64,000 nt of DNA from positions 930,001 through 994,000 of the forward strand of contig NC_089433.1 of assembly GCF_026210795.1 (NCBI RefSeq), written 5' to 3'. The notes beneath the pieces were generated by a model that was not told the origin of the DNA, ran no database searches, and was given only the letters and a program-made list of their open reading frames with translations. Below are positions 3,924 to 28,349 of the stretch, piece by piece. This DNA is from Rhizophagus irregularis (Eukaryota > Glomeromycota > Glomeromycetes > Glomerales > Glomeraceae). How positions within the stretch are numbered: the first letter of the stretch is position 1; each line of letters starts with the position of its first letter. The position numbers and the translations under genes are program-made.

Positions 3924-4328
3924 ATGCATTGTAAAACAAGCAGATCGGATAAATTTCACTTAACTAAATGTTTTTTCATAGTGATCACATGGTACGCTTG
4001 TAGATCCTATATAATTATTTTTGGAAGCTCTCTTGCCTTGGATGAAAGTATATTCTCAACTGGTCAAGCTTATGTTGCACTTAGTAGATGTTCTAACTGG
4101 AATAATGTTGATATATCACATCTTGATATGTCTGCTTTCATGGTTGATCCTGATGTAATCCTAGAATATCAACGATTGGAATCCATATCTAACACAAATC
4201 CCACCTATTTTCATAATATATTTATCTATTATTTACTAGTAAAAAAAAAAATAAAACTAAAATACTTATTAGTGTACAAAATATATAAATCAATAAATCT
4301 ACAATTAAATTTCTCAATTTTATTTTAA
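3924..4328 (+). pseudogene. C-terminal fragment of a PIF1-like helicase
   Basis: Residues 35-90 of this 134-codon frame match the end of PIF1/RecD-type superfamily 1B helicases. They include SLALDESIFSTGQAYVALSR, where G-Q-A-Y-V-A-L-S-R is helicase motif VI with its arginine finger, followed by a D-P-D-V-I-L-E-Y-Q-R-L segment. Residues 1-34 do not look like helicase, and motifs I-V (Walker A and B) are absent upstream, so this is a 3' remnant. The tail beyond residue 95 is Lys/Ile/Tyr low complexity. Such fragments come from cellular PIF1 expansions or from Helitrons, and the sequence here cannot separate the two. No Helitron 3' hairpin with CTRR was identified. Confidence 0.65.
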
Positions 4329-6902: not shown

Positions 6903-9036
6903 TTATGAAAACTAATATTCAAGTAGTTTCAACTTGCCTGAACAAGTTTCAATTAATAAATAAAGTTGATTTCATTTGCCCAAAGTGGAAATATTACGCT
7001 CTAAATTAAAAAACAGAAAAAAGAGTTAATATCATCAAGAAAAATGCAATTTTCTCTAAGCACTACATCTACATTCATGAAAATTAATATTGAAGTGGTT
7101 TCAATCTACCTGAACAACTTTCAATTAATAAATAATGTTAATTTCATTTGCCCAAAGTGAAGATGTTATGCTCTAAATTAAAAAACAGAAAAGAGAGTTA
7201 ATATCATCAAGAAAAATGCAATTTTCTCTAAGCACTACATTTACATTCATGAAAATTAATATTCAAGTGGTTTCAACCTGCCTGAACAACTTTCAATTAA
7301 TAAATAAAGTTGATTTCATTTGTTCAAAGTGGAAATATTACGCTCTAAATAAAAACAGAAAAGAGAGTTAATATCATCAAGAAAAATGCAATTTTCTCTG
7401 AGCACTACACCTACATTCATGAAAATTAATATTCAAGTAGTTTCAATCTGCCTGAACAACTTTCAATTAATAAATAAAGTTGATTTCATTTGCCCAAAGT
7501 GGAAATATTACGCTATAAATTAAAAAACAGAAAAGAGAGTTAATATCATCAAGAAAAATGCAATTTTCTCTAAGCACTACACCTACATTCATGAAAATTA
7601 ATATTCAAGTGGTTTCAACCTGCCTGAACAACTTTCAATTAATAAATAAAGTTGATTTCATTTGTATAAAGTAAAAATATTACGCTATAAATTAAAAAAC
7701 AGAAAAGAGAGTTAATATCATCAAGAAAAATGCAATTTTCTCTGAGCACTACACCTACATTCATGAAAATTAATATTCAAGTGGTTTCAACCTGCCTGAA
7801 CAACTTTCATTTAATAAATAAAGTTGATTTCATTTGCCCAAAGTGGAAATATTATGCTATAAATTAAAAAACAGAAAAGAGAGTTAATATCATCAAGAAA
7901 AATGCAATTTTCTCTAAGCACTACACCTACATTCATGAAAATTAATATTCAAGTGGTTTCAACCTGCCTGAACAACTTTCAATTAATAAATAAAGTTGAT
8001 TTCATTTGTATAAAGTAAAAATATTACGCTCTAAATTAAAAAACAGAAAAGAGAGTTAATATCATCAAGAAAAATGCAATTTTCTCTGAGCACTACACCT
8101 ACATTCATGAAAATTAATATTCAAGTGGTTTCAACCTGCCTGAACAACTTTCATTTAATAAATAAAGTTGATTTCATTTGCCCAAAGTGGAAATATTACG
8201 CTATAAATTAAAAAACAGAAAAGAGAGTTAATATCATCAAGAAAAATGCAATTTTCTCTAAGCACTACACCTACATTCATGAAAATTAATATTCAAGTGG
8301 TTTCAACCTGCCTGAACAACTTTCAATTAATAAATAAAGTTGATTTCATTTGTCTAAAGTGGAAATATTACGCTCTAAATTAAAAAACAGAAAAGAGAGT
8401 TAATATCATCAAGAAAAATGCAATTTTCTCTAAGCACTACACCTACATTCATGAAAATTAATATTCAAGTGGTTTCAACCTGCCTGAACAACTTTCAATT
8501 AATAAATAAAGTTGATTTCATTTGTCTAAAGTGGAAATATTACGCTCTAAATTAAAACACAAAAAAGAGAGTTAATATCATCAAGAAAAATACAATTTTC
8601 TCTAAGCACTACATCTACATTCATGAAAATTAATATTCAAATGGTTTCAACCTGCCTGAACAACTTTCAATTAATAAATAAAGTTGATTTCATTTGTCTA
8701 AAGTGGAAATATTACGCTCTAAGTTAAAAAACAGAAAACAGAATTAATATCATCAAGAAAAATGAGCACTACACCTACATTCATGAAAATTAATATTCAA
8801 GTAGTTTCAACCTGCCTGAACAACTTTCATTTAATAAATAAAGTTGATTTCATTTGCCCAAAGTGGAAATATTACGCTCTAAATTAAAAAACAGAAAAGA
8901 GAGTTAATATCATCAAGAAATGCAATTTTCTCTAAGCACTATACCTATATTCATGAAAATTAATATTCAAGTGGTTTCAACATGCCTGAACAACTTTTAA
9001 TTAATAAATGAAGTTGATTTCATTTAGCCAAAGTGG
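6903..9036. repeat. 172-bp satellite, about 12.4 tandem copies
   Basis: The marker gagttaatatcatcaag recurs at 7023, 7195, 7365, 7537, 7709, 7881 and 8053 and continues to about 8903, a period of 170-172 bp. Every unit also has tgcctgaacaactttcaatt and aaagttgatttcattt. The first (6903) and last (about 8940-9036) units are more diverged, as expected at array edges. Between 7613 and 8310 two unit types alternate (tttgtataaagtaaaaat versus tttgcccaaagtggaaat, together with ctctgagc versus ctctaagc), giving a 344-bp higher-order repeat. No ORF persists through the units. Confidence 0.92.
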
Positions 9037-9630
9037 AGATTATAGTATATTTGGAAAAAGAAGTTTAATTTAAAAAAATTTTATATAAAAAATAAATGTA
9101 ATATAAAAATTAAGAACTGAGATGATAAAAATTTGAAAATGACCTGACATGAATTTTGAATTAATTCTTTCATTAATTATAAATTCAAGTAGTTTAAAAA
9201 TAAAAATAGTAAGAAAAAATATTTTTTATGAAATATCACATTATTTTCTAAAAGAAATACACTTAAATACACTTATAAATTTAATTTGTGATTATGTAAT
9301 ATCCAAATATTTAATCTTACAAATAGAAAAAAATGTAAAAAAATTTATAAAAAAAGAAAAATTTTTGAAAAAAATTTTCGTCTAACACTTTTTTATTTTG
9401 ATTATCACAAGATCTACATGATCATCTACACGTTTCAATTTTTTTAACGAAAAAGAAATATATTTGAAACTATTTTTATTGAAAATCAATAAAGATCAAC
9501 AAAATCAAATACAAATATAAAACTTATTGTTTGATGCCTCAAGTTAATATGTAGCGAAAGTGGCACAAAAATGAATATTTTGTAATTTTATTCTAATGAT
9601 ATCAAAGAAGCAATATTGCAATAACAACGT
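9037..9630. other. AT-rich spacer
   Basis: A 78-codon frame at 9149-9385 is Ile/Lys/Leu/Phe-rich without a recognisable domain and is probably chance. Nothing else is supported. Confidence 0.5.
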
Positions 9631-13275: not shown

Positions 13276-13956
13276 TAATCATATACAAGTTTGTTTTAAT
13301 AAAGTTTACTTTGATATTCGCAAATCTATAGTTTGTGAATTAATTTACAAGAAATGAATGCCTGATGTCATTGTCATTAAAAATGCCAATGGAGGAATAG
13401 ACATATCCGGACATTAAGTCCCTTCAGGGAGTGCTTTGCACCAGGAAATCCTGACATAATTTTTTATTCCACATAGTTTACGGTTGTTATTCGTGCACAT
13501 GAACGAAATAGCAGAGACATCTAAAATACTAAGCTAATATCTTCTTTCCAATTTTCGTTCAAGTTAGAAGTTGACCTCATAAGGTACAACTATTTTTTTA
13601 CTAATCTATCAAGTATTACAATATCGACTGCGGAGACAAATGTTAGTGGACAATGATTTTTTGTAACGTTTCATTTGGGAACATCTAATTACTTTTGGTG
13701 CCACTGTATACAAATAAGTTAAAGCATATCTTACAAGTTTTATGATTTCGAACTCTTGCCTCCTTTCTCTCATTATTACTATAGTAAAGTTTCCAAGTCA
13801 TTTTTTGTAAATTTATTTGACGCTCAAAGATGAAAGATATAATACCTTTTTACATTTCTCATCACCTAACGGCACAGTTCGTTCCTTTTATCCTACCAAT
13901 ACAAACTTCGTTTTGGTGTTATATTACCTTTATTGTGTTTTCCTTTAAAAGATTAA

Positions 13957-16900
13957 CTTCTTGGTTCAAAAACTGAACCAGAACAAAAAACTACTGCACC
14001 ACAAAGAGAACAAGCTGATATTTATATCAAAATGGTTTTTTTTTTACGCTACACAGCAAATCAGCCGACTAAATCTTCTTTCAACATTTCCAAACATATC
14101 CAAAAACAAAAACGCCATTATGCCAATAATAGTCACATCCTGAAGATCATTATACCAATGAGCTAAATAGATTATTAGAGAATAATAGTATTGAGCACTA
14201 TTATTCTCATGATCTTATCCATTTCAAGGATATTGGCACTGGAGGATTTGCTTCTGTTTATGTAGCAAAATGGAATAATACACCAACAAAATATGCAGTT
14301 AAAAAATTTGTTGACAATAAGGAGGTGTATTACGGTTTTCATCAGGAAGTCACGGGAAAAATGTTCATTACATGTATATTTTTGCAAATCATTTACATCG
14401 CAATTTTCATTATTTTAAATGTACATGTAATATTTAACATTAATGAACATCATCAATGAGATTTTTATCATGATGTGCAGCATTTAATAATAAATATTCA
14501 ATGTACATATCTTTGCTATAATATTACTAACAAGTAAATTTCAGTTAACTACAGTTAGTATTGATCGGTATCACGTGATCAGTTTGCCGATCGATCTTTT
14601 TTTTTTTGATAAAAAAAAGTTTAATAAAAAACTTTAAACTTCTTTCTTTCCCTTTCTTTCACTTCCCTTCGTCCCCTTATCCTTTCGTCCTTCTCCTATA
14701 TCCTTCCCTTTCCTTTCATCCTTCCCTTCCTTTTCGTTCTCCCCTTTTCTCACACCTGTAAGTTTCGTTACTTTTTTTTTAATTTATTTTTTTTTAATTT
14801 ATTTTTTTTAATTTATTTTTTTTTATTTATTTATTTTTTTTTAATTTTATCTTTTTTTTTCGTTTCTTTTCATTATTTTATTTTTTGTAGGACGTTTACT
14901 AGGAGGACGCCGGCTTGAATACTACGAAACCGGACTTTAAGGTAGTAAGAAACTGGAAAGGGGATATTTTAAATTTAAGAAACGAACTAACGTTTTTTTT
15001 TGTTATTTTATTTTTTGTAGGACTAGGAGGACGCCGGCTTGAATACTACGAAACCGGACTTTAAGGTAGTGAGAAACGGGATTTTTGTTATTTTTACTAA
15101 TTTAAGAAACGAACTAACGTTTCTTTTCATTATTTTATTTTGTAGGACGCGTAGGAAAATGCTGGCTTGAATACGAAACCGGACTTTAAGGTAAGAAACG
15201 AGGGAAGGGTGATTTTAAATTTAAGAAATGAACTAACGTTTCTTTTCGTTGTTTTTTTTTGTAGGACGGAGGACGCCGGCTTGAATACTACGAAACCGGA
15301 CTTTAAGGTAGTGAGAAACAGGATTTTTGTTATTTTTACTAATTTAAGAAATGAACTAACGTTTCTTTTCATTATTTTATTTTGTAGGACACGTAGGAAA
15401 ATGCCGGCTTGAATACGAAACCGGACTTTAAGGTAAGAAACGGGGGAAGGGTGATTTTAAATTTAAGAAACGAACTAACGTTTCTTTTCATTGTTTTTTT
15501 TTCGTAGGACGCGTACTAAGAGGATGCCGGCTTGTTCACAAAACCGGACTTGTTTAAGGTAAAAAATGGGGAAAGGGAATTTTTAATATTTTGAAGTTAA
15601 GAAACGATTTAACGTTTCTTTTTCATTTTTTTTTTGTAGGACGCTGGCTTTAATTAATATAGGTTAAATAAACAACAAAAGGCTTTTAAAAAAAATTTCA
15701 GGCCCTTTTTATTATTAATTGGCGTAGTATTTTTACACAAGATAGAGTGATTGCATCGTAAAATATCGATAAGGAAATAATACATTGGATTTTAAGGTAA
15801 AAAACTGGGAAAGGGGGATGGAAGGATGGAAGAAGGGGATTTTGCAAAGAGGAACCAAGATTCGTAAGAATCTTGGTTTTATTTATCTATTTTTATTATT
15901 TTGGAACGGTTACTAATAACTGTTCTTTTTTTTTTGTTTAGGTTCGGGTGGGCTTCCGAGTTCCGAAGAACGGAAACCCAAAGATTCGTAAGTACGAATC
16001 TTTTTTTATTTTTTATTTTTTATTTTATGGAATGGTTTACTAACCGTTCCTTTCTTTTTTTTATAGGTTCAGTGTCTCGGGAGGGCTTCCGAAGAATGGA
16101 AAAACCTAAAGATTCGTAAGTACGAGTACGAATCTTTTGGGTTTTTTTTTATATTTTTTAATATTACGAACGGTTACTAACCGTTCTTTTTCTTTTATTT
16201 TTTATAGGTTCGGGTGGTCTTCCGAAGAACGGAAAACAATAAACTGAGGTATCGTAAGTATTTTACTACGAACCTTAGATTTTTTTTAATATTACGAATG
16301 GTTTATTAACCGTTCTTTCTTTTTTTTTAGAGGATCGGGTGGATTTCCGAAGAACAGAAAAAGGAGAAACTAAGGTTCGTAAGTATTATATTACGAACCT
16401 TAGATTTATTTTTTTTTAATACTATGAATGGTTCTAACCGTTCTTTATATTTTATTTTATAGGTTTCGGGTGGGCCTCCAATCTTTGGATAAAGCGGAAC
16501 CAAGATTCGTGAGTACGAATCTTGGTTTATTTATTATTATTATTTTTTTTTTAATATTATGGAACGGTTACTAACCGTTCTTTTTCTTTTTTTTAGGTCT
16601 CGGGTGGATTTCCGAAGAGTGAAAAAAGAAGAACAAGATTCGTAAGTACGAATCTTAACGGAACGGATTGGTAAGTTTTGAAGTTTCACTTCACTTCGAA
16701 ACTTTTTTAAAATTTTTTTTTAAATTAATTTTTTATTAATACTCTTTTTAACTTTTTATTGTTAGGTTGTACTTTCTGGACAAAGTTTCGAAGAATAACT
16801 TCGAAACTTTTTTTGTAGGTCTCCCGGAGTATTTGGTTAATTTAACGAGGCCTACTGTCTTTTTTTTGTTTTCTTTTACGGTTATAATAGAATAGATTGT

Positions 16901-18108
16901 TATAGTGTATTTTAATAAAATAAATTCAGTAATATTTAGTATTGTCATATCATTAACATAATTTATATAAATTCGATATGATGTTTATTATCTTTAAAAT
17001 AATGTACATCGTTAATGGACATTAAAATTAGGTGATGCACATCGAATATTGTGACATCGGTAGTACATTGCAGGGTCCGATGTTCAGCGTTTCTTTATGA
17101 TGTACATCAAGTGACCGATATACATTTGATGAACATTTTTCCCGTGACTTCCTGATGTTGATAATATTTTTTGTATTACTTGTATATTTACTATTTATAT
17201 ATAACTTGCCTCAAGGTTTATTTAACAAAAATGGTTAACCATCATGCAAATATAATCGGATTCTATGGAGTTACTAAATTAGAAGGTAATATAGAAATTT
17301 TGCGATAAACCTATAATATTTTTTGTTGACGTTAATTCTCTTTAGGTGAGGAAATGTATTCGCTTATTCTCGAATATGCGGAAGGTGGGACACTAAGAGA
17401 TCATCTAAGGAATAATATTGTCAAATGGAATAGCCAACTAAGGTTTGCAAGAGAAATTATAAGTGCAATTATATGGTTGCACGATTATAAGAGTATAGTA
17501 CATGGGGATCTTGTAAGTATAATTGTAATGTTTGAACATCTACCTAATAAACTATTCACTATTTAATGTGTAACTAACGCCTTCTTTTTTAGCATCCCAA
17601 TAATATTCTATTACATAGGGACACAATAAAATTGGCAGATTTTGGACGTTCTTTTGAAAAAGGAAAGGGTGATAATAATACTGAAGTATGGGGAGTAGTA
17701 CCTTATGTGGATCCTAAAATGTACGATAAAACAATTCTGTATAAGTTAAACGAGAAATCTGATATATATTATTTGGGAGTTTTATTCTGGAAGTTGGCCA
17801 GCAGCTCATTACTTATTGATAGTCCTGAAGATAATTATATTATGCTTGGAGCGGCTGTACCAAACACGAATGATAAATTCACTGTACTTTATCAAAGTAA
17901 GTGTAAAATTAACTTCAGAACTATGATTCCGTTTGTTCTAGTATAATTTTATTTTTCTTGTCGCTGATTTTTGTCTATTTGAATAGAATGTTTGAAACAA
18001 GAACCAGATGAACGACCAAATATTTCTGAAGTAAATGAAACACTTAGTAGTATTGATAATGATGAGTCTACTGTTTCTGATTCTGAAGAAAGTGAATACT
18101 CCATTTAA
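13957..18108 (+). CDS. TKL-like protein kinase gene with a transposon-bearing intron
   Basis: Exons: 13957-14136 (N-terminal, other frame), 14133-14348, 17216-17285, 17346-17512, 17593-17896 and 17987-18108. The last five join to 879 nt with all phases matching. Visible kinase features are the glycine loop G-T-G-G-F-A-S-V, the Y-A-V-K-K lysine, the alpha-C glutamate in H-Q-E-V, the catalytic loop H-G-D-L-H-P-N-N, the metal site A-D-F-G and P-Y-V-D-P-K-M in place of APE. All catalytic residues are present. HGD in place of HRD is common in Glomeromycotina kinases. It presumably phosphorylates Ser/Thr/Tyr in signalling; substrates are unknown. Introns 2-5 start GTAAT, GTAAGT or similar. The first mapped intron (14349-17215) is 2.9 kb, starts with an unusual GTCACG and contains the inverted-repeat element. 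The N-terminal piece is one frame off at 14137-14138, so a frameshift or an unseen intron exists there. Confidence 0.72.
14891..15690 (+). repeat. Class I array: seven exon-like units with intron-like spacers
   Basis: Exon-like units at 14891-14941, 15021-15065, 15146-15190, 15265-15307, 15388-15432 and 15508-15558, plus a last one from 15640, are 43-51 nt long and share GCCGGCTTGAATAC...CCGGACTTTAAG. Each is preceded by a T-rich tract ending GTAG and followed by GTAAGAAACG or GTAGTGAGAAAC. The spacers are 79, 80, 74, 80, 75 and 81 nt, and most have a palindromic GAAACGAACTAACGTTTC (or close variant) holding an ACTAAC branch-point-like motif. The pattern equals canonical small fungal introns repeated in tandem. 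Confidence 0.85.
15850..16690 (+). repeat. Class II array: six exon-like units with hairpin-borne splice motifs
   Basis: Units at 15942-15987, 16067-16115, 16208-16253, 16331-16378, 16463-16508 and 16597-16641 are 45-49 nt (CGGGTGG...TTCCGAAGAACGG...). The spacers are 79, 92, 77, 84 and 88 nt, start GTAAGT (once GTGAGT) and end TAG. The donor sits in a palindrome such as GATTCGTAAGTACGAATC. The branch-point motif TACTAAC sits in AACGGTTACTAACCGTT, followed by a T-rich tract. Variants TACTAAT, TATTAAC and TTCTAAC occur in single units. Confidence 0.87.
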
Positions 18109-20291
18109 ATAAGAATTGTCAAAAACTTTAGTGTCACTTCATTGATGATGTATAAAAAAATGGGATCTGGTACATCAGAGATGAAATTTTTGTTACGCAA
18201 ACTGGATTCTCGACATTACATAGAAATGGAAAAATTTAAAGCGCTCAATACAATACATCAATATGGTTTACTTGTCTCTTTATACAAATTCATCCCCCAA
18301 GATTCCAAATTTTCTGCACATGGCCAACGGATCTTCTCTTTAGATTATTCACATACTTTTTAGATTTTCGTTTATAACTGTTTTCTTTTCTCTTTGAGGG
18401 GTGTTAGACAACACGCAATTGTGATGATGGGTTACATAATAATTACATAAACTGTTTATAACAAATAGAGTATAATAAAAGATATGGAAATATGTCAAGC
18501 GATAATATATGTATCAATTGTGCATAATTCATTGACCATTTTTTAGCACAAATTTGGTTTACATTTTAGGATATAATCGTTTGAAACGACAAAAAGCCAA
18601 TGGTGAAGGATGTTGAGCTTTGCCTCCTGGAAAGTTAATAACTTTCTTGTTATAATTGTTTCCTCTTTTGGAATAGGTTAATGTGAATGCGTATACACAT
18701 AACACAAATTTTGGTGCATTGTCCTCAATATGTTTATGAAATACTAATGTACAACGGTATATTTTTTTAGTGATTCAGATGTTTAACAAGACTGTGTAAT
18801 ACATTTTCGTTTGCCATCACAGACACAAATATCATATAAGAATAGCGAAACAATATCATGTACACAAAATAAATTAGAAGGGAACGTTAATCATTTCTTG
18901 TTCTACACGATAAAAGTGGTAATTCAATAGTTTTTCTTGTGATCGCACTAACATATAATCATATCAGATGAGATTAAGTAAACATTACGAAATAACTTAG
19001 AATCATTCAGAATAATGCAGATGATAACTTGTTTCATATAATTTATACGGCACATTTCTTCTGAACTGAAAACTAACTGGTTGCCTCTGTCACATCATCT
19101 GTTGGAGCAAAATATGTTCTTACACTATTCATTTGATAAATGTATTGTGCTCAATAGTAATACCAGAAATATATGACTAAAGCCTACCTAGTTGAGCGTA
19201 TGCTTTATTAATACTATGATTTTATATAACATAAAAATACGTTTCTCAATATTTTCTTATTAGCTTTTACTAGATAACGAATTGATCCAAGAGTTTTTCC
19301 ATCTCGTACCAGAAATAGATGGAGAGATAAAAATATGCCCATTTTCATCAACCTTCTTAATTCTACATGCGTAATAAATTGCACCAACATTTGACTCCCT
19401 GTAATAGAAAAATGGAGTCCTAGGCACAATATGAAACAAATTGTGCAAAGAGATATTGGATTTAACTTGTTTGGCGATTCAATAGTAAGACCTTGTACAC
19501 TTTGTGTAGAAGAAATGCTCATGCAGTTAAAAAAAATCAGTAATTTCTTTCCTATTTGGAAACGCATACAACTTGTTATTCACCTTGGAAATTTAATACG
19601 TCCATTTTTCTCTCCACATTACTGCTATTCTGATTACAAAGTGGTTGGACAAATTCCATAATAGAGTCCACTGCATTATAATCCATACTAAAAAGCTGTG
19701 AAAGTTTGTCATGAGTTAATCATAAATATGAGTTCCTATCTACTTTTGTAGTCTTGCCTAGGCTCTGCCTCCGAAGTAGATTTTTTCATAAATTTTTTTA
19801 GTATCTACCTGAGTAAAATCTGAGTCTTCTTTTTAGAATCCAAAAAGGCTTTGACATGGAAAGCTGACTATTTTAATATTGGAAGGAATTTTGTCAGACA
19901 TTATTTTATAGATTAAGCCCATTTTCATGTATTCTTTTGCTCATATTATCCCAAAGGAGTAATTACATGCCAGTACTGTGGTAAGTCATATAACTGAAAT
20001 ATGTTTAATACTGCTTTTGCTTGGACCTTTTCCGTTAAATGAAAAAAAATATTTTGCTAGCTAGATCAAAAACTAAACTCTGACAAATTCATTTATTCAT
20101 AATCTTATCACAAACATATAATTTGATACTAAAAAAGATCAGTGTAGCCTAGTCATGTGCGGATACTACAGAAGCGTTATATTAAAGGGTGTACGAACTG
20201 TGGTAGATTTTGTATAAGCCACCTTCATGTGTACTGTACTGCGGACTATGTCAATACTGAGATCCATCTAGGAACATAAGAGCATAACTCC
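18109..20291. other. No gene recognised
   Basis: A 73-codon frame at 18142-18363 follows the kinase stop but shows no domain. Frames on both strands at 19214-19661 overlap one another. The minus-strand reading around 19260-19448 has a protein-like stretch (G-A-I-Y-Y-A-C-R-I-K-K-V-D-E-N-G) that may be a relic. Nothing can be assigned. Confidence 0.4.
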
Positions 20292-20301
20292 ATGATATGG
20301 T

Positions 20302-21498
20302 AAAGCTCCGAATGGTTCGGGCTAAACCGGGGAACCGATCCGAAACTGGCTCAAAATTCGGTTCGGTTCGGTTCGGGTATTAGAACCGAAAAACTGGCGG
20401 TTCAGTTCGGTTTAATCCGATTTTTTATAAAAATGCGAAAAATCGAATAGTCGGCCATCTAGTGATCGTGCAAAGTCAAGCCATATATCATTGGATTTGT
20501 CTCGACGAGACGCGTCGAATGGTGGTAAGATCATGTCTCTAGAATCGATAGATCACACGTTAACCCACGCTAAATGATTTATAAATAATTGGGATTAGCA
20601 AGCTATCTATCGGTGCTAGAGACATGATCTTAGCACCATTCGACGCGTCTCAGTGAGACGAATCCAATGAATATAAATTCGATTGTATACGACCACTGGA
20701 TGGCGAATAATATCAAGTTTCGCATTTTTTTTAAATTTTCGAGCGTTAAAAATTAAAAATTCTGATACATGAATTTATTCGTCGTCCAATGGTCATACAA
20801 ATATGAATTAGGACTCATTCGACTCGTCTCAATGAGACGAGTCGAATGGTGGTAAGATCACGTCTTTAGCATCGATAGATAGCTTGCTAATGCCAATTTT
20901 TTATAAATCATTTAGCGTGAATTAACGTACGATCTATTGATGCTAGAGACATTATCTCACCACCGTTCGACTCGTCTCATTGAGACAAATCCAATGAGTC
21001 CTAATTCATATTTATACGACCATTGGACGACGAATAAATTCATGTATCAGAATTTTTAATTTTTAACGCTCTAAAATTTTAAAAAAATGCGAAACTTGAT
21101 ATAATTCGCCATCCAGTAGTCGTACACGAACGATTTTATATTCATTGGATTCGTCTCACTGAGACGCGTCGAATGGTGCTAAGATCATGTCTCTAACACA
21201 GATAGATAGCTTGCTAATTCCAATTATTTATAAATCATTTAGCGTGGGTTAACATGTGATCTATCGATGCTAGAGACATGATCTTACCTCCATTCGACGC
21301 GTCTCGTCGAGACGAATCCAATAATATATGGCTCGAATTTATACGATCACTAGATAGCCGGCTATTCGATTTTTCGCATTTTTATAAAAATCGGATTAAA
21401 CCGAACCGAACCGCCGGTTTTTCGGTTCGGTTCTTACGGATTTCGGCTCTAATCCGAACCGTCTATAATCCGGACCAAACCGACCCATTCGGAGCTTT
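20302..21498. mobile_element. Foldback (MULE-like) element, 1.2 kb, 10-bp target duplication
   Basis: The element starts AAAGCTCCGAATGG and ends CCATTCGGAGCTTT. It is flanked by the direct repeat atgatatggt at 20292-20301 and 21499-21508. Its two arms of about 600 bp are inverted repeats of each other meeting near 20900, and each arm has nested palindromes (tcgtctcaatgagacga) and a CGGTTCGG-rich outer part. A 9-11 bp duplication plus very long inverted repeats is typical of Mutator-like foldback elements. No transposase is encoded. Confidence 0.88.
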
Positions 21499-21935
21499 AT
21501 GATATGGTACGCTAAATGTTAAACAAAATTGATTTTACTAGCCGGTACAAGCTTTACATGACCAGTTTGCTTATGCAAATACCCATCTATGATACTGATT
21601 ATAGTTTAGAATGTTAAATTAAAGATAAGTAAATTTTTAGTGTATATTATCTACAGTTGGAACAAAAATTTACTAATCGGATCTGATATTCACGATACAA
21701 CTAAAAAAAAAATGAAATAGTAAGTTGTATTATCATCTTTAATGACAAATGAATGGATAACATAGGCTATTTTAAGAAAATATTGTTAATTAGCAAGTGA
21801 ATGATATACTGCAAAAAGAAAAAAATAACTTACCATTCTAATATTAATTTAGAATTTAAAGGCAATAAGACAGTCATAATTCATTAATAAAGTTGTAGAA
21901 TAGTAATTACCATCAAACGACTGGTAATCCTTATC

Positions 21936-22052
21936 CTACAATCCTGAGAAATCATTTTCTATAAGCTGTTCTTTGTATAATTTATAATTATCATAATAAT
22001 CATTACTATCATCATTGTCATCAACGTCATCATCAGCTATAACTTTCTCCAT
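21936..22052 (-). CDS. Acidic 38-aa frame, possible gene-end relic
   Basis: From ATG 22052 to TAG 21936 the frame gives an acidic D/N run (A-D-D-D-V-D-D-N-D-D) followed by K-L-Y-K-E-Q-L-I-E-N-D-F-S-G-L. The second half looks protein-like, but there is no homology I can name and no clear upstream exon. It may be chance coding from a GAT/ATC microsatellite. Confidence 0.2.
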   Translation of the reverse strand: MEKVIADDDVDDNDDSNDYYDNYKLYKEQLIENDFSGL

Positions 22053-22720
22053 CACATATATTCTTATAATTATTACATAACCTGCATGATTAACAAATGC
22101 ATGTTCTTAATATTTAAATATTTCTATTATTTCTAGAATTATACTTAATTGCAATATTTGAATAAGAACATAATATATTGAAATGTAAATAACTCAATCA
22201 AATGTTGGAAGTCTGGAACTTTGAATTTCATATCTGTCTAAAAATAATTTGAATCAATTGAATTATCATCACACAGAGTATTTATGCTCCAAAGACAGTG
22301 GTCTTGTCAAGGATGATATAAAATCTATAACTATTTAATATGATTAATTTATTATTGCATATCTTATTTTTTGCAACAAAAGCACTCCATCCATTCTTCT
22401 TTAAATATAATACTGCAGATTTTCTTTTAATGGAAGAGATTATTATGTTAAACATCATAAAATCAAATTAAGTACGTTAAGAATCAATAGTTGTAATTAA
22501 AAATAATTTAATCAGAATAAAATATCAGCTTATTTTAGATAATTTTTCTCTTGTGAAGGGATTAGGGCCAGATGATTACTAGCGTAAAGAGTAAGAAGAT
22601 TTTTAGATATCGTCACACTCTCAGAGACGTTGAAGATATTCAATCGTGACTAAATTTTTGGTAATCTCCAAGGCGGTTGATCAGTTTTACAGGTATTAGT
22701 TTCAAGTCTCAACTCTTTAA
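22053..22720. other. No gene recognised
   Basis: The minus-strand reading of about 22650-22720 gives a short protein-like stretch (V-K-E-L-R-L-E-T-N-T-C-K-T-D-Q-P-P-W-R-L) immediately left of element B. It is too short to assign. Confidence 0.35.
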
Positions 22721-23199
22721 CATTAGGAAGTCATAAGAAAAATGTTCATCAAATGTACATCGGTCACTTGATATACATCATAAAGAAACGCTAAACATCG
22801 GACCCTGCAATGTACTACCGATGTCACAATATTTGATGTGCATCACCTAATTTTAATGTCCATTAATGATGTACATTATTTTAAAGATAATAAACATCAT
22901 ATCAAATTTATATAAATTATGTTAATGATATGACAATACTAAATATTACTGAATTTATTTTATTAAAATACACTATAACAATCTATTCTATTATTAAAAA
23001 TAACAACCGTTAAAGAAAACAAAAAAAAAGATACTAGTAGGCCTTGTTAAATTAACCAAATACTCCAGGAGACCTACAAAAAAGTTTCAAAGTTATTCTT
23101 TGAAACAAAAAGTTAAAAAGAGTATTAATAAAAATTAATTTAAAAAAAAATTTTAAAAAAGTTTCGAAGTGAAGTGAAACTTTGAAACTTACCAATCCG

Positions 23200-24240
23200 T
23201 TTCGTTAAGATTCGTATTTACGAATCTTGATCTTCTTTTTTCACTCTTCAGAAATCCATCTAAGACCTAAAAAAAAGAAAAAGAACAGTTAGTAACCATT
23301 CCATAATATTAAAAAAATAATAATAATAATAAATAAACCAAGATTCGTACTCACAAATCTTGGTTCCACTTTATCCGAAGATTGGAGGCCCACCTGAAAC
23401 CTATAAAATAAAATATAAAGAACGGTTAGAACCGTTCATAGTATTAAAAAAAAATAAATCTAAAGTTCATAATATAATACTTATAAACCTTAGTTTCTCC
23501 TTTTTCCAATCTTCGAAAATCCATCCGATCCTCTAAAAAAAGAAAGAACGGTTAATAAACCGTTCGTAATATTAAAAAAAATCTAAGGTTCGTAGTAAAA
23601 TACTTATGATACCTCAGTTTATTGTTTTCCGTTCTTCAGAAGACCACCCGAATCTATAAAAAATAAAAGAAAAAGAACGGTTAGTAACCGTTTGTAATAT
23701 TAAAAAATATAAAAAAAAATCCAAAAGATTCGTACTCGTACTTACGAATCTTTAGGTTTTTCCATTCTTTAGAAGCCCTGAGACACCGAACCTATAAAAA
23801 AAAGAAAGGAACGGTTAGTAAATCGTTCCATAATAATAAAAAAAATAAATAAAAACTAAGATTCTTACGAATCTTAGTTCCCATTCGTCAGAAGCCCACC
23901 GAACCTATAAAAGAATGAAAGGAACGGTTAGTAAACCGTTCCATAAAATAAAAAAAAATACCAAGATTCTTATGAATCTTGGTTTCCATTTGTCGGAAGC
24001 TCACCAAACCTATAAAAAATAGAAAGGAACGGTTAGTAAACCGTTCCATAAAATAAAAAATAAAAAATAAAAAAGATTCGTATTTACGAATCTTTGGGTT
24101 TCCGTTCTTCGGAACTCGAAAGCCCACCCGAACCTAAACAAAAAGAAAAGAACGGTTATTAGTAACCATTCCAAAATAATAAAAATAGATAAATAAAACC
24201 AAGATTCTTACGAATCTTAGTTCCTCTTTGCAAAATCCCC
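23200..24240 (-). repeat. Class II array in copy B
   Basis: This is the reverse-strand equivalent of 15850-16690, with about eight units against six in copy A. It is recognised by palindromes such as AACGGTTAGTAACCGTT-like and GATTCGTAcTtACGAATC-like blocks every 100-130 bp and by the CCGTTCTTCGGAA core. More substitutions are visible than in copy A (for example AACCATTCC for AACCGTTCC), so several units have lost perfect palindromes. Confidence 0.8.
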
Positions 24241-24539
24241 TTCTTCCATCCTTCCATCCCCCTTTCCCAGTTTTTTACCTTAAAATCCAATGTATTATTT
24301 TCTTATTGATATTTTACAATGCAATCACTCTATCTTGTGTAAAAATACTACGCCAATTAATAATAAAAAGGGCCTGAAATTTTTTTTTAAAAGTTAACAG
24401 TCCCTTTTGTTGTTTATTTAACCTATATTAATTATGATACATGAGTCACGCTCATTACAGCATTTCCATCACTTTATATTCATATCAATTATTATCTTGT
24501 ATATTCTTTTCTTGTGTTATTTAATATATAGCTTTATAA

Positions 24540-25660
24540 AAGACAAACCAACCCGGTTTTGTAAACAAGCCGGCGTCCTACAAAAAAAAAAATGAAAAAG
24601 AAACGTTAGATCGTTTCTTAACTTCAAAATATTAAAAATTCCCTTTCACCATTTTTTACCTTAAACAAGTCCAGTTTCGTGAACAAGCCGGCATCCTCTT
24701 AGTACGCGTTCTACAAAAAAAACAATGAAAAGAAATGTTGGTTCATTTCTTAAATTTAAAATCACCCTTCCTCCATTTTTTACCTTGACGTCCGGTTTCG
24801 TATTCAAGCTGGCATTTTCCTACGCGTCCTACAAAATAAAATAATGAAAAGAAATATTAGTTCGTTTCTTAAATTAGTAAAAATAACAAAAATCCCATTT
24901 CTTACTACCTTAAAGTCCGGTTTCGTAGTATTCAAGCTGGCGTCCTCTGTCCTACAAAAAAAATAACAAAAAGAAACGTTAGTTCGTTTCTTAAATTTAA
25001 AATAAAAAATCACCCTTCTCTCATTTATTACCTTAAAGTCTGGTTTTGTATTCAAGCCGGCATTCTCCTACGCATCCTACAAAAAATAAAATAATGAAAA
25101 GAAACATTAGTTCATTTCTTAAATTTAAAATAAAAAGAAAAGGTCATCCTTTCCCCCATTTCTTACTTTAAGTCCAGTTTCATAGTATTCAAGCCAGCGT
25201 CCTCCTAGTCCTACAAAAAATAAAATAACAAAAAGAAACGTTAGTTCATTTCTTAAATTTAAAATATCCCCTTTCCAGTTTCTTACTACCTTAAAGTCCA
25301 GTTTTGTAGTATTCAAAGGACCCCGGATATCTAATATAAAGGTCATAATGGACTTTTGGCCAAAAACACCCCTTTTTGCTGAAACTCAAAAAATCGTTTT
25401 TTGTAAATATCTCAGCATCCAGTAATTCAATTTTAATGAACTATTTTTTATTTTGTAGCCCTCATTTAGCTCTACAATTTAAAAAAAAGTTCATCAAAAT
25501 TGGACCACTGGATGCCGAGATATTTACAAAAAACGATTTTTTGAACCCCTGAAAAATGGGCCAATCTGCCGAAAGTGTGACTTATGACCTGTTTTGGAGA
25601 TATCCGGGGTCCTGTATTCAAGCTGGTGTCCTCCTAGTAAACAGCCTACAAAAAATAAAA
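24540..25660 (-). repeat. Class I array in copy B, split by a MITE
   Basis: This is the reverse-strand equivalent of 14891-15690. The exon-like core (CTTAAAGTCCGGTTTCGTA...AAGCCGGCGTCC on the plus strand) recurs about every 120 bp with CTACAAAA (reverse of TTTTGTAG) at its acceptor side. A 297-bp MITE at 25317-25613 cuts the outermost unit. Confidence 0.8.
25317..25613. mobile_element. hAT-like MITE nested in copy B, 8-bp target duplication
   Basis: It starts AGGACCCCGGATATCT and ends AGATATCCGGGGTCCT, a perfect inverted terminus apart from a short variable junction. It is flanked by the direct repeat gtattcaa at 25309-25316 and 25614-25621. A second pair of long inverted segments lies inside (25383-25420 and 25502-25545). 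The target words belong to a class I unit of the host element. An 8-bp duplication is typical of hAT elements. Confidence 0.9.
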
Positions 25661-26157
25661 TAATGAAAAGAAACGAAAAAAAAGATAAAATTAAAAAAAA
25701 ATAAATAAATAAAAAAAAATGAATTAAAAAAAAGTAACGAAACTCACAGGTGTGAGAAAAGGGGAGAACAAAAAGGAAGGGAAGGATGAAAAGAAAGAGA
25801 AGGATATAGGAGAAGGATGAAAGGATAAGGGGATGAAGGGAAGTAAAAGAAAGGGAAAGAAAGAAGTTTAAAGTTTTTTATTAAACTTTTTTTTATCAAA
25901 AAAAAAAGATCGATCGGCAAACTGATCACGTGATACTGATCAATACTAACTGTGGAAATTTACTTGTTAGTAATATTATAGCAAAGATATGTACATTGAA
26001 TATTTATTATTAAATGCTGCACATCATGATAAAAATCTCATTGATGATGCTCATTAATGTTAAATATTACATGTTCATTTAAAATAATGAATATTATAAT
26101 ATACATGATCTACAAAAATGTACATGTAATAAACATTTTTCCCGTGACTTTCTGATG

Positions 26158-26640
26158 AATATAAATCAATATAAAAAACTTTTGTTAATACTTAATACTA
26201 TAAGCATAAATTCAAAATAAAAAATTTCTTCTTAACTTACGTAAACTCTCACAATTTGTGTAATTAATTGATAATTTGGCACTCGTTATTCTGTGCCAAA
26301 ATTGTAAATGTCTGCAACTCAAGTATGAATAGTTTTAGTTTCTGATCCCTTTATGAGTCGGAGACTGCCCGACGAGTACATGAACTATAGCAATACAAAA
26401 ATATCTCTTGGCGGGTAATTAATAGATCCTCTAAAAATAACGACTGCAGATATAATTCAATAACATATTACTGCAGAGAAGTATAGTGATGACGTACTTA
26501 CTTACTGCGCATGATATATGCTCGGCTAAGCCACTTATGTGATTCGAAAAAAGATATACGATTTCGCATAATTCAGTAATTGATTCACCCAATAATTCTT
26601 CTAGAAGTGATACAGAAAGTTGTGGAGTCCAGTGGTTCTT
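26158..26640. other. No gene; dispersed repeat relic
   Basis: The sequence 26500-26575 (tactgcgcatgatatatgct ... gtgattcgaaaaaagatata) resembles 34252-34360 (tactgcgcat ... catgatttgaaaaaaggtat). Both copies are followed or preceded by decayed genes. It may be an old transposon end or a shared gene-family promoter. Confidence 0.35.
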
Positions 26641-28349
26641 CTAGGCAGTTACCAGAGAGATAATAGGACTCATCATTGGGGACCCTCTCCTTTCGCATCT
26701 TCCATCACGATAGTAATAACCTCTATCACGTTCACTATATTCATTATATTCACCGTATCTATCATCCGATTCATCTGGCATCTCTTCTTCAGAATCATCG
26801 GAATCTGGATTATCATTAGTCTAACCTCGATATACCGATATTTGATATACCGATATACTATTAAAAACTTGATATACTGATAAAATTTTATTTTCCCACT
26901 ATATGTGAAGACATATAAATATCGGTATAACTTTGATATAACGATATTTTCTAAAAATTTCATATATGTTCCGATATATCATTATATAAAGGTTTGACTG
27001 TATATGATTTGGAATAGCAAACGTGCGTATTATCTGGTTCTGAAGAGACTACATCATTCACCTCATCAAAATACACATCATCATCGTAGTTATTTACCTT
27101 AGCCTGTATTGCTGAAACTAAGGGCTTTGCTTGCTCCTCTAATATATTATCCTGATGATTCAAAATCTCCTCTTCAGAATCGATAATAGGGCTATCCTGA
27201 TCAGGTCCCTTTGAGACCCCATTTGATAACTCAGTGTTGGGATTTTCGGAGAAATAATCAATAATAGTTTGAATTTGACTATCAGATAATTCTGATATAG
27301 AATTTGCACTATACGTTGTGATATACTTGATCTTATCAATTCCTATTTTCTCAAATAAGCTTCTTGCTCTCTGAGTTTGTTTTAGTATTGTGTTGCGTTT
27401 AGTACTAGGAGGAAGGAGTTTAGTAAGATTGTCATAAATCATACCTTTTGCTTTTTTCTTGCCAACTTTATACTCGTTCATAAACTCTACAGTCTTTTTA
27501 TCGAATTCTATAATATAGAAACACCAACACAATAATTCTTTTTGATTAACTCGAATCACTTCATCTTTTGCATCCCATGCTTCTTGTATTAAGCAGGCTA
27601 GATTTTGCAATATACTTGGGGATCATCTGTATCAGATTTTTCATGATGGCCCGTCATGGAAATTTCAGTCTCATGATTTTTCTCAGGTGCCGAAGTGGTG
27701 AAATCAAACACATTCTGTACAATATTCTCTGCTTCCCTCTTCTTATGTGATTGAGATTTTTTCGTTACAGAAGATGAGTCCTGGATAGCTGATTCATGCA
27801 ATAATTTCTTTTCCCTATTCTTCTGCCAAATCTCATTGCTAACACTTTTCTTATACACCTCAACTAAGAAAATGTCCGTCTCCCTTTCCTCTATTGACTT
27901 GATGTTTGTGTTATCACTAGTTGCTCTATTTATAGGCTGATCTATTACAGGATAAGAAGCATCCAGCTGTGGTAGTTGTTACCTTCGATATCTCTTTTTC
28001 TCTAGCAGAGCATAAGTTCTGCATGTTAGTAACGTGCTGTGGTTGCTGAGGCCTTGTGAAATTGGAGAAATCGAAATTATGTATTAGTTTGGCTAATTCA
28101 GCTTTAAGCTCAGCATTTCTGCACTATTTTTCTCCAATTCCTCGATTTTGACCTTGTGTTTGGCATTTTTAGCATCATGCTTTGCATTTTCCTCAATAAT
28201 CTGCCTCAACTTCGCATTCCAGCCTCAATCTTGGCAAACTTTAGTAACTTCTCTTTAAGTTCAGGAATCTCAGCACTCTTTTTCCTAAGCTCTGCAATCT
28301 CAGCTAAGAGCTTGGAATTTAATTCTCTCAGTGAATCAATGGATTGCAT
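26641..28349 (-). pseudogene. Coiled-coil protein gene of a lineage-specific family, broken
   Basis: Read from ATG 28349, an N-terminal leucine/glutamate coiled coil (I-D-S-L-R-E-L-N-S-K-L-L-A-E-I) continues for about 90 residues across a one-base shift near 28208. A Gln/Pro linker follows, with further shifts near 28100 and 27970, then a basic segment (K-K-S-V-S-N-E-I-W-Q-K-N-R-E-K-K). Next is a conserved alpha-helical region (I-G-I-D-K-I-K-Y-I-T-T-Y-S-A, about 27300) reached through a shift near 27605. The C-terminal acidic and Tyr/Asp/Arg-rich tail (D-D-S-E-E-E-M-P-D-E-S...G-Y-Y-Y-R-D-G) lies at 26641-26815, beyond a MITE insertion. The order matches an abundant Rhizophagus family I remember, whose function is unknown. 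At least four frameshifts plus the insertion make it non-functional. Confidence 0.7.
26817..27000. mobile_element. pogo/Tigger-like MITE inside the coiled-coil gene
   Basis: The left end (TAGTCTAACCTCGATATACC) and the reverse complement of the right end (CAGTCAAACCTTTATATAAT) are matching imperfect termini. The interior is full of cgatata/tatcg words. CAGT-type termini and a TA at 27001-27002 fit the Tc1/mariner-pogo superfamily. The left TA is not separable from the terminus. It separates the penultimate from the last conserved block of the surrounding gene, so the ORF from 27610 ends inside it. Confidence 0.6.

Follow-up and report, generated by a model that had tools for sequence, protein, structure and literature searches.

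Transposons are usually regarded as intron-poor. Among the closest described systems are elements in which introns themselves have multiplied. In the available text of PMC9860276, introners are short introns with the features of transposons (inverted ends and target duplications) that have multiplied within one genome. The sister stwintrons of the Hypoxylaceae, as described in the accessible part of PMC8469720, lie in coding genes and have terminal inverted repeats of 45-55 nt and no target duplication. According to the portion of PMC8770142 that is available, human HUSH represses long intronless DNA, and introns counteract this repression even when they are unspliced. At least one silencing system treats the introns of a transcript as a mark of self.

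The locus described here is a 2,818-nt element, located at 14340-17157 on the + strand of the window, which is the whole 64,000-nt stretch of Rhizophagus irregularis DNA that was analysed. It resembles introners in combining introns, inverted ends and target duplications. However, an introner, in the available text of PMC9860276, consists of a single intron sitting where it inserted in a gene, whereas the window element carries a chain of introns and exons. Sister stwintrons share with the arrays reported below the multiplication of fungal introns, an internal symmetry and possible double-stranded RNA, but in the accessible part of PMC8469720 they are single introns, whereas the arrays are tandem and non-coding, lie in transposons and carry short donor and branch-point hairpins in each intron. 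With non-autonomous TIR DNA transposons the elements share inverted ends and short duplications, those that end in CACTG or CACTAG being CACTA/EnSpm-like; the one-strand tandem intron array carried as cargo is the difference. Non-coding genes with several exons, for example those hosting snoRNAs, have many short exons without a reading frame. The arrays are similar in this respect, but an intron of only 74-92 nt could hardly accommodate a snoRNA. No earlier report of an intron-array transposon was found among the matches listed from the open-licence literature, and the terms "intron" and "splic" are absent from the available text of PMC8647823 and PMC11075540.

A probable non-autonomous DNA transposon in a protein kinase gene

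The element has inverted ends and a 2-bp target duplication and is probably a non-autonomous DNA transposon. Its boundaries, the gene that it interrupts and its second copy are as follows.

14338-14339: left target-site duplication, TT; the right partner is at 17158-17159
14340-14379, + strand: left terminal inverted repeat, starting with CATCAGGAAGTCACGGG, 40 nt long and 95% complementary to 17118-17157
17118-17157, − strand: right terminal inverted repeat, pairing with the left 40-nt repeat (95% complementary)
14133-17943, + strand: host gene split by the element, with protein kinase domain pieces at 14133-14339, 17336-17515 and 17593-17943
22721-26157, − strand: second, diverged copy of the element

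The same ends are present in the copies of the element, and the end motif occurs at 77 places in the genome with at most two mismatches (reversed control, 0). All 15 elements in which both ends were seen, including both window elements, are flanked by at least a matching dinucleotide, judged by eye, which is AA, AT, TA, TT or CA. The window element starts with CATCAGG and does not have CACTA/EnSpm ends. It contains no transposase-type frame. No autonomous partner was found among the longer end pairs that were read (L047, L048 and L055), in which no transposase was seen apart from one Tc1-like frame. This frame belongs to a Tc1-like transposon that is bounded by separate inverted ends and nested in a CATCAGG element (L048:3240-4540).

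The Pkinase match of the last gene piece, 17593-17943, is above the cut-off (E 9.4e-08). Those of 14133-14339 (E 0.0049) and 17336-17515 (E 6.3e-06) are below it, with PK_Tyr_Ser-Thr above its own cut-off in the latter piece. The array is situated on the same strand as the interrupted kinase gene, in sense orientation.

Covariance model R1 has 24 matches in the window, all within the two elements; a few of these matches are weak and lie in antisense. The window also contains a 172-bp unit repeated 12.5 times in tandem with 93% matches (6905-9037) and 2.6 copies of a 327-bp repeat (20483-21326). The latter matches plant miRNA hairpin families below threshold and is probably palindromic MITE-like DNA. 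A further palindromic, MITE-like segment with a sub-threshold MIR2670 match is found inside the second copy, at 25377-25553.

Arrays of predicted introns in the window and the genome

The interior of the element can be segmented into exon-like and intron-like blocks, with a conserved block upstream of them.

14563-14597, + strand: conserved upstream block, CACGTG plus GCCGATCGATC, putative promoter region, present in 23 of 58 loci
14640-14757, + strand: C+T-rich leader, putative first exon; 29 of 58 loci have a C+T-rich 80-nt stretch
14758-14890, + strand: first intron-like block, 133 nt, GTAAGT...TAG, without a clear strict-type branch-point match
14891-15639, + strand: type A units with exons of 45-54 nt
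14945-15020, 15069-15145, 15191-15264, 15311-15387, 15433-15507 and 15559-15639, + strand: type A introns
15640-15863, + strand: long exon-like block, 224 nt, separating type A from type B units
15864-16596, + strand: type B units, in which the 5' splice site and the branch point each have a predicted hairpin
15864-15941, 15988-16066, 16116-16207, 16254-16330, 16379-16462 and 16509-16596, + strand: type B introns
16671-16765, + strand: last intron-like block, 95 nt
16914-16919, + strand: AATAAA, possible polyadenylation signal, 3' of the last exon-like block

Fourteen intron-like blocks are chained on the + strand, one of 133 nt, twelve of 74-92 nt, all between 14945 and 16596, and one of 95 nt. 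The exon-like blocks are 45-54 nt long, with the exception of the 224-nt block and of 16597-16670 (74 nt). The block map of the original prediction retains its positions, with small corrections to the number of intron-like blocks, which is 14, and to the exon lengths of 45-54 nt; its division of the units into two repeat families, A at about 14891-15639 and B at about 15864-16596, is borne out. The first short unit has two possible donors, the GT at 14942, which had been proposed, and that at 14945 (GTAAGA). Two other type A units, at 15066-15071 and 15308-15313, likewise offer a pair of overlapping candidate donors, GTAGTG and, 3 nt further on, GTGAGA.

Although types A and B differ in sequence, they have a common grammar of GTRAG, CTAAC or a near form, a T-tract and TAG. 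The introns sit side by side and have the sequence features of U2 introns, namely a GT donor, a branch-point motif, a T-tract and AG at fungal spacing. A strict intron rule finds 12 introns on the + strand of the element and none on the − strand, compared with a mean of 0.031 and a maximum of 2 in 1,000 first-order Markov sequences, confirming the predicted interior array of canonical mini-introns. Under a loose rule the numbers are 13 and 0 (Markov mean 0.90, maximum 5). Strict-rule hits in the other 57,745 nt of the window number one per strand.

The upstream block was searched for with up to six edits in 58 loci, some of which overlap one another. Judged by eye, the C+T-rich stretch lies only in array sense in 27 of the 29 loci that have it, on the opposite strand in L042 and on both strands in L066. 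The AATAAA at 16914 is weak evidence because the same word also occurs at 14489, 14623, 15667 and 16238.

The sense orientation inside the kinase gene would suit an array that lets the element be spliced out of host transcripts, in an introner-like manner, and stepwise self-removal of this kind had been suggested earlier. However, full predicted splicing would leave 1,632 of the 2,818 nt, with 31-33 stops per frame, so that the element would not be removed whole as an introner is. Barring the use of other sites, the 418 nt upstream of the first donor would in any case stay in the RNA, as would the 392 nt downstream of the last acceptor. On the predicted splice sites, self-removal is highly improbable.

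The genome that was searched comprises 32 contigs with 146,748,485 bases. A DNA search with the whole element gave at least 171 matches (best 40 of 668 candidates scored), and the matches listed were grouped by eye into at least about 39 places. The search for other copies, which had been proposed as a check, yielded 37 copies with the same grammar (82,972 nt), having 216 strict-rule introns in sense and 0 in antisense, and 302 and 14, respectively, under the loose rule; these copies include many near relatives and are not independent. At least five loose-rule introns are present in 40 of 44 sequences. In these 40, the median exon is 49 nt (315 exons) and the median intron 82 nt (interquartile range 78-87 nt, 355 introns).

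Three unit words match the genome 239, 505 and 432 times with 2, 2 and 1 mismatches allowed, respectively, and their reversed controls 0 times. The matches often share one array and are therefore not counts of elements. Such numbers mean that the load could be large if the arrays are expressed, which speaks for a reading in which the spliced RNA or the many introns act in trans, either for the host or by loading the spliceosome. On the other side, a search of 13800-27000 in the window against Rfam gave 14 weak matches, with no family at its gathering score, and action in trans is very unlikely.

Nine regions chosen from the unit-word matches (L049, L050, L051 and L061-L066) are all arrays. Each has between 5 and 17 loose-rule introns, all of them on a single strand. 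The possibility that L061-L064 were single introns of ordinary genes was rejected, as all four are arrays. The arrays of L061 (contig 5) and L062 (contig 19) are near-identical, one having an extra unit, which suggests recent spread and the gain or loss of a unit. A third type of array unit, of about 110 nt, with the donor GTAAGTGTGTGG and the branch hairpin AAGAAACG-TACTAA-CGTTTCTT, is found at L065:470-1122. Within one end pair of L047 (898-3554), two opposite-strand arrays face each other, and in L055 intron-like units (1-140 and 3950-4101) flank a CATCAGG element inserted in another array.

The ends of the array-bearing elements are not uniform. L049 has CACTG ends, with ATA or longer flanking both sides, and agrees in outline with CACTA/EnSpm elements; among the matches listed, its start was matched in all 40 scored candidates. 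The end of L066 is TTTTTCGACTAGTG, with a matching CACTAGTCGAAAAA in L041 and L042. There are at least two element types with CACTG or CACTAG ends. Because the ends differ among the CATCAGG, L049 and L066/L041/L042 elements, the same kind of array rides on at least three end types.

Splice-signal conservation, coding potential and hairpins

Divergent units were compared by pairwise local alignment; the 15,229 alignments with 60-75% identity are mutually non-independent. The mismatch rates were 0.020 for the branch-point TAA, 0.070 for GT and 0.073 for AG, compared with 0.149 for other intron bases and 0.197 for exons, while control TAA, GT and AG words elsewhere in the arrays had rates of 0.198, 0.132 and 0.360, respectively. 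Between divergent units, changes at the branch point, GT and AG are thus some 2-10 times rarer than around them. Donor positions +3 to +5, with a rate of 0.122 at 60-75% identity, show little conservation. The advantage of GT over control GT is small at 80-85% identity (0.054 vs 0.060) and reversed at 90-100% identity (donors 0.032 vs control 0.014, and 0.014 vs 0.006), but TAA and AG keep theirs over the control words at 80-100% identity.

In four young subfamilies the rates were 0.041 for GT, 0.041 for AG, 0.045 for other intron bases, 0.020 for TAA, 0.066 for exons and 0.068 for flanks, showing no constraint on GT and AG within these subfamilies beyond that on other intron bases. The expectation, set beforehand, that splice motifs should decay more slowly than neighbouring bases therefore holds between divergent units and fails for GT and AG in young copies. 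Since divergent units conserve GT and AG and young copies do not, we infer from the alignments that selection acts on the transposing lineages (master copies) and that inserted copies decay.

No long reading frame was found in the spliced exons of the window element on either strand. The longest stop-free stretch does not exceed the maximum of 100 shuffles in 35 of 40 spliced sequences. It does so in the other five: L049 (220 aa; shuffle maximum 161), L042 (164; 97), L023 (153; 116), L036 (101; 97) and L041 (93; 92). Exons under 90 nt have lengths of 0, 1 and 2 modulo 3 in 100, 77 and 58 of 235 cases, respectively. The original argument that the exons are non-coding, their lengths not being multiples of three, is weak alone, but its conclusion stands by way of the translated spliced exons. 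With the reservation of those five sequences, we call the unit non-coding as judged from these translations.

The arrays might also be the remains of a decayed protein-coding gene, or of a host gene that was captured, in which the small exons have multiplied and the introns are relics. L049 and L042, in which consecutive exons of 45 or 48 nt are in frame for a stretch, stop-free over the 220 and 164 aa given above and with stops elsewhere, would fit such an origin. However, most spliced sequences are near the shuffled values, and the repeated exons of L019-L024 are 49 nt long and therefore break any frame. In addition, the exons diverge most and the splice bases stay conserved. A gene relic is consequently unlikely.

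Type B units contain two pairings. One joins the exon end to intron sequence immediately past the donor (AAGATTC-GTAAGTAC-GAATCTT), and in the other GAACGG pairs with CCGTTC around the branch-point motif TTACTAA. The predicted stems are often extended on folding, with the donor GT and the branch adenosine paired near the tip. In a survey of 106 non-redundant array introns drawn from 356, a perfect branch-point stem of at least 6 bp was found in 43% of introns (flank-shuffled, 4.2%) and a perfect 5' splice-site stem of at least 7 bp in 36% (flank-shuffled, 1.6%). Upon exchanging arms between introns in 500 permutations, the number of completely paired branch-point stems fell from 49 to 25.2 ± 3.6 (maximum 37) and that of 5' stems from 32 to 18.4 ± 3.0 (maximum 26). 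When one pair fewer was required, the branch-point hairpin was still above the permuted value (74 vs 55.2) and the 5' hairpin was not (56 vs 54.7).

An alignment of 33 type B introns has 96.8% of its cells paired (93.0 after shuffling) and 19 cells with compensatory changes on both sides (4.5 after shuffling), and its covariation is 0.144 (0.083 after shuffling; slid partners at most 0.047). The numbers of pairs with changes on both sides (4 vs 2.9) and of further pair types (14 vs 13.6) are not unusual in this set. A consensus fold calculated free of any given structure recovers the branch-point helix with two additional pairs and four pairs of the 5' helix. Seven type B units have folding z-scores of -5.3 to -7.0; the two-hairpin fold is lacking in the one type A unit that was tested (z +0.77). 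In four later loci (L062, L063, L064 and L066, leaving out L061 as a near copy of L062 and L065 as another unit type) the branch-point stem is present in 22 of 34 introns (shuffled 3.8%) and the 5' stem in 23 of 34 (shuffled 2.1%), although this test is not independent because the loci were found by hairpin words. A small and rough control of 12 predicted ordinary introns, taken with a rough gene finder from chaperonin loci L057 and L058 (one of the 12 being on the opposite strand in L057), had no 5' stem longer than 4 bp, and 2 of the 12 had a stem of 6 bp at the branch point; L059 and L060 gave no gene model above threshold. A narrower hairpin score, superseded by the wider search, showed weak differences at the branch point, and 50 isolated rule hits in the loci plus 37 window hits outside the elements were shuffle-like by it.

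The subterminal repeats of CACTA/Spm elements are a precedent for repeated binding sites. The hairpins of the arrays are also palindromic as DNA, and, together with the CACTG or CACTAG ends of at least two element types, they could be taken as DNA-level palindromes bound by a transposase or a regulator, the likeness to introns being a by-product. The strand bias of the strict rule (216 vs 0) argues against this. TAA, GT and AG are the most conserved positions, the stems vary with their pairing kept, partly by G-U pairs, and the acceptor falls outside the palindromes. The binding-site reading is thus very improbable.

A probable spliced non-coding transcription unit

The reading that best accounts for these observations is that of a non-autonomous DNA transposon carrying an intron-rich, spliced non-coding transcription unit that is kept spliceable in the spreading lineages, to which a probability of roughly 0.68 is given on the evidence of the sequence. 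A spliced non-coding RNA was among the meanings originally proposed for the array, and it emerges as the preferred one from the introns lying on one strand and from the lack of a conserved long frame after predicted splicing. Transcription would start from the CACGTG plus GCCGATCGATC block and run through the C+T-rich leader to the AATAAA at 16914. Each intron would be removed by the major spliceosome, as suggested by the motifs, spacing, strand and deep conservation. The arrays may grow and shrink by duplication of exon-plus-intron units, for example the 235-nt repeat of 97% identity, and the transposing lineages would hold the splice signals, which inserted copies would lose.

A multiply spliced transcript might resemble that of a gene rather than that of an intronless invader, and the locus would then be transcribed, open to transposase and unsilenced. 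Non-autonomous DNA transposons can do without an RNA product, which counts against the preferred reading; for this reason open, gene-like chromatin is favoured as the benefit. That gene-like splicing protects the element from silencing is put forward tentatively, by analogy. The likeness to HUSH, in the available text of PMC8770142, is that introns mark DNA as gene-like and counter repression, HUSH being a human system.

The predicted stems also speak against the spliced unit, as many donors have their GT in base pairs, the branch adenosine is frequently paired too, and this could hinder splicing. Conversely, the type B hairpins may help to match each donor to the branch point of the same unit in a row of near-identical ones. 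This role is speculation because both signals themselves lie partly within the predicted pairs. The hairpins would nevertheless be a natural test bed for the effect of RNA structure on splice-site pairing in tandem introns.

It is possible, though doubtful, that the arrays represent a genome-wide class of mobile non-coding "intron-array genes" on at least three end types, many of them bearing RNA hairpins at donor and branch point, in which splicing itself and not a product is selected; the transposons would then pass for genes rich in introns. Intron arrays can mislead both gene and repeat annotation. Mobile elements made mostly of near-optimal mini-introns would make the idea of the intron as a mark of self testable in a transposon-rich fungus and, if their RNA is truly spliced, would be an unusual kind of mobile gene.
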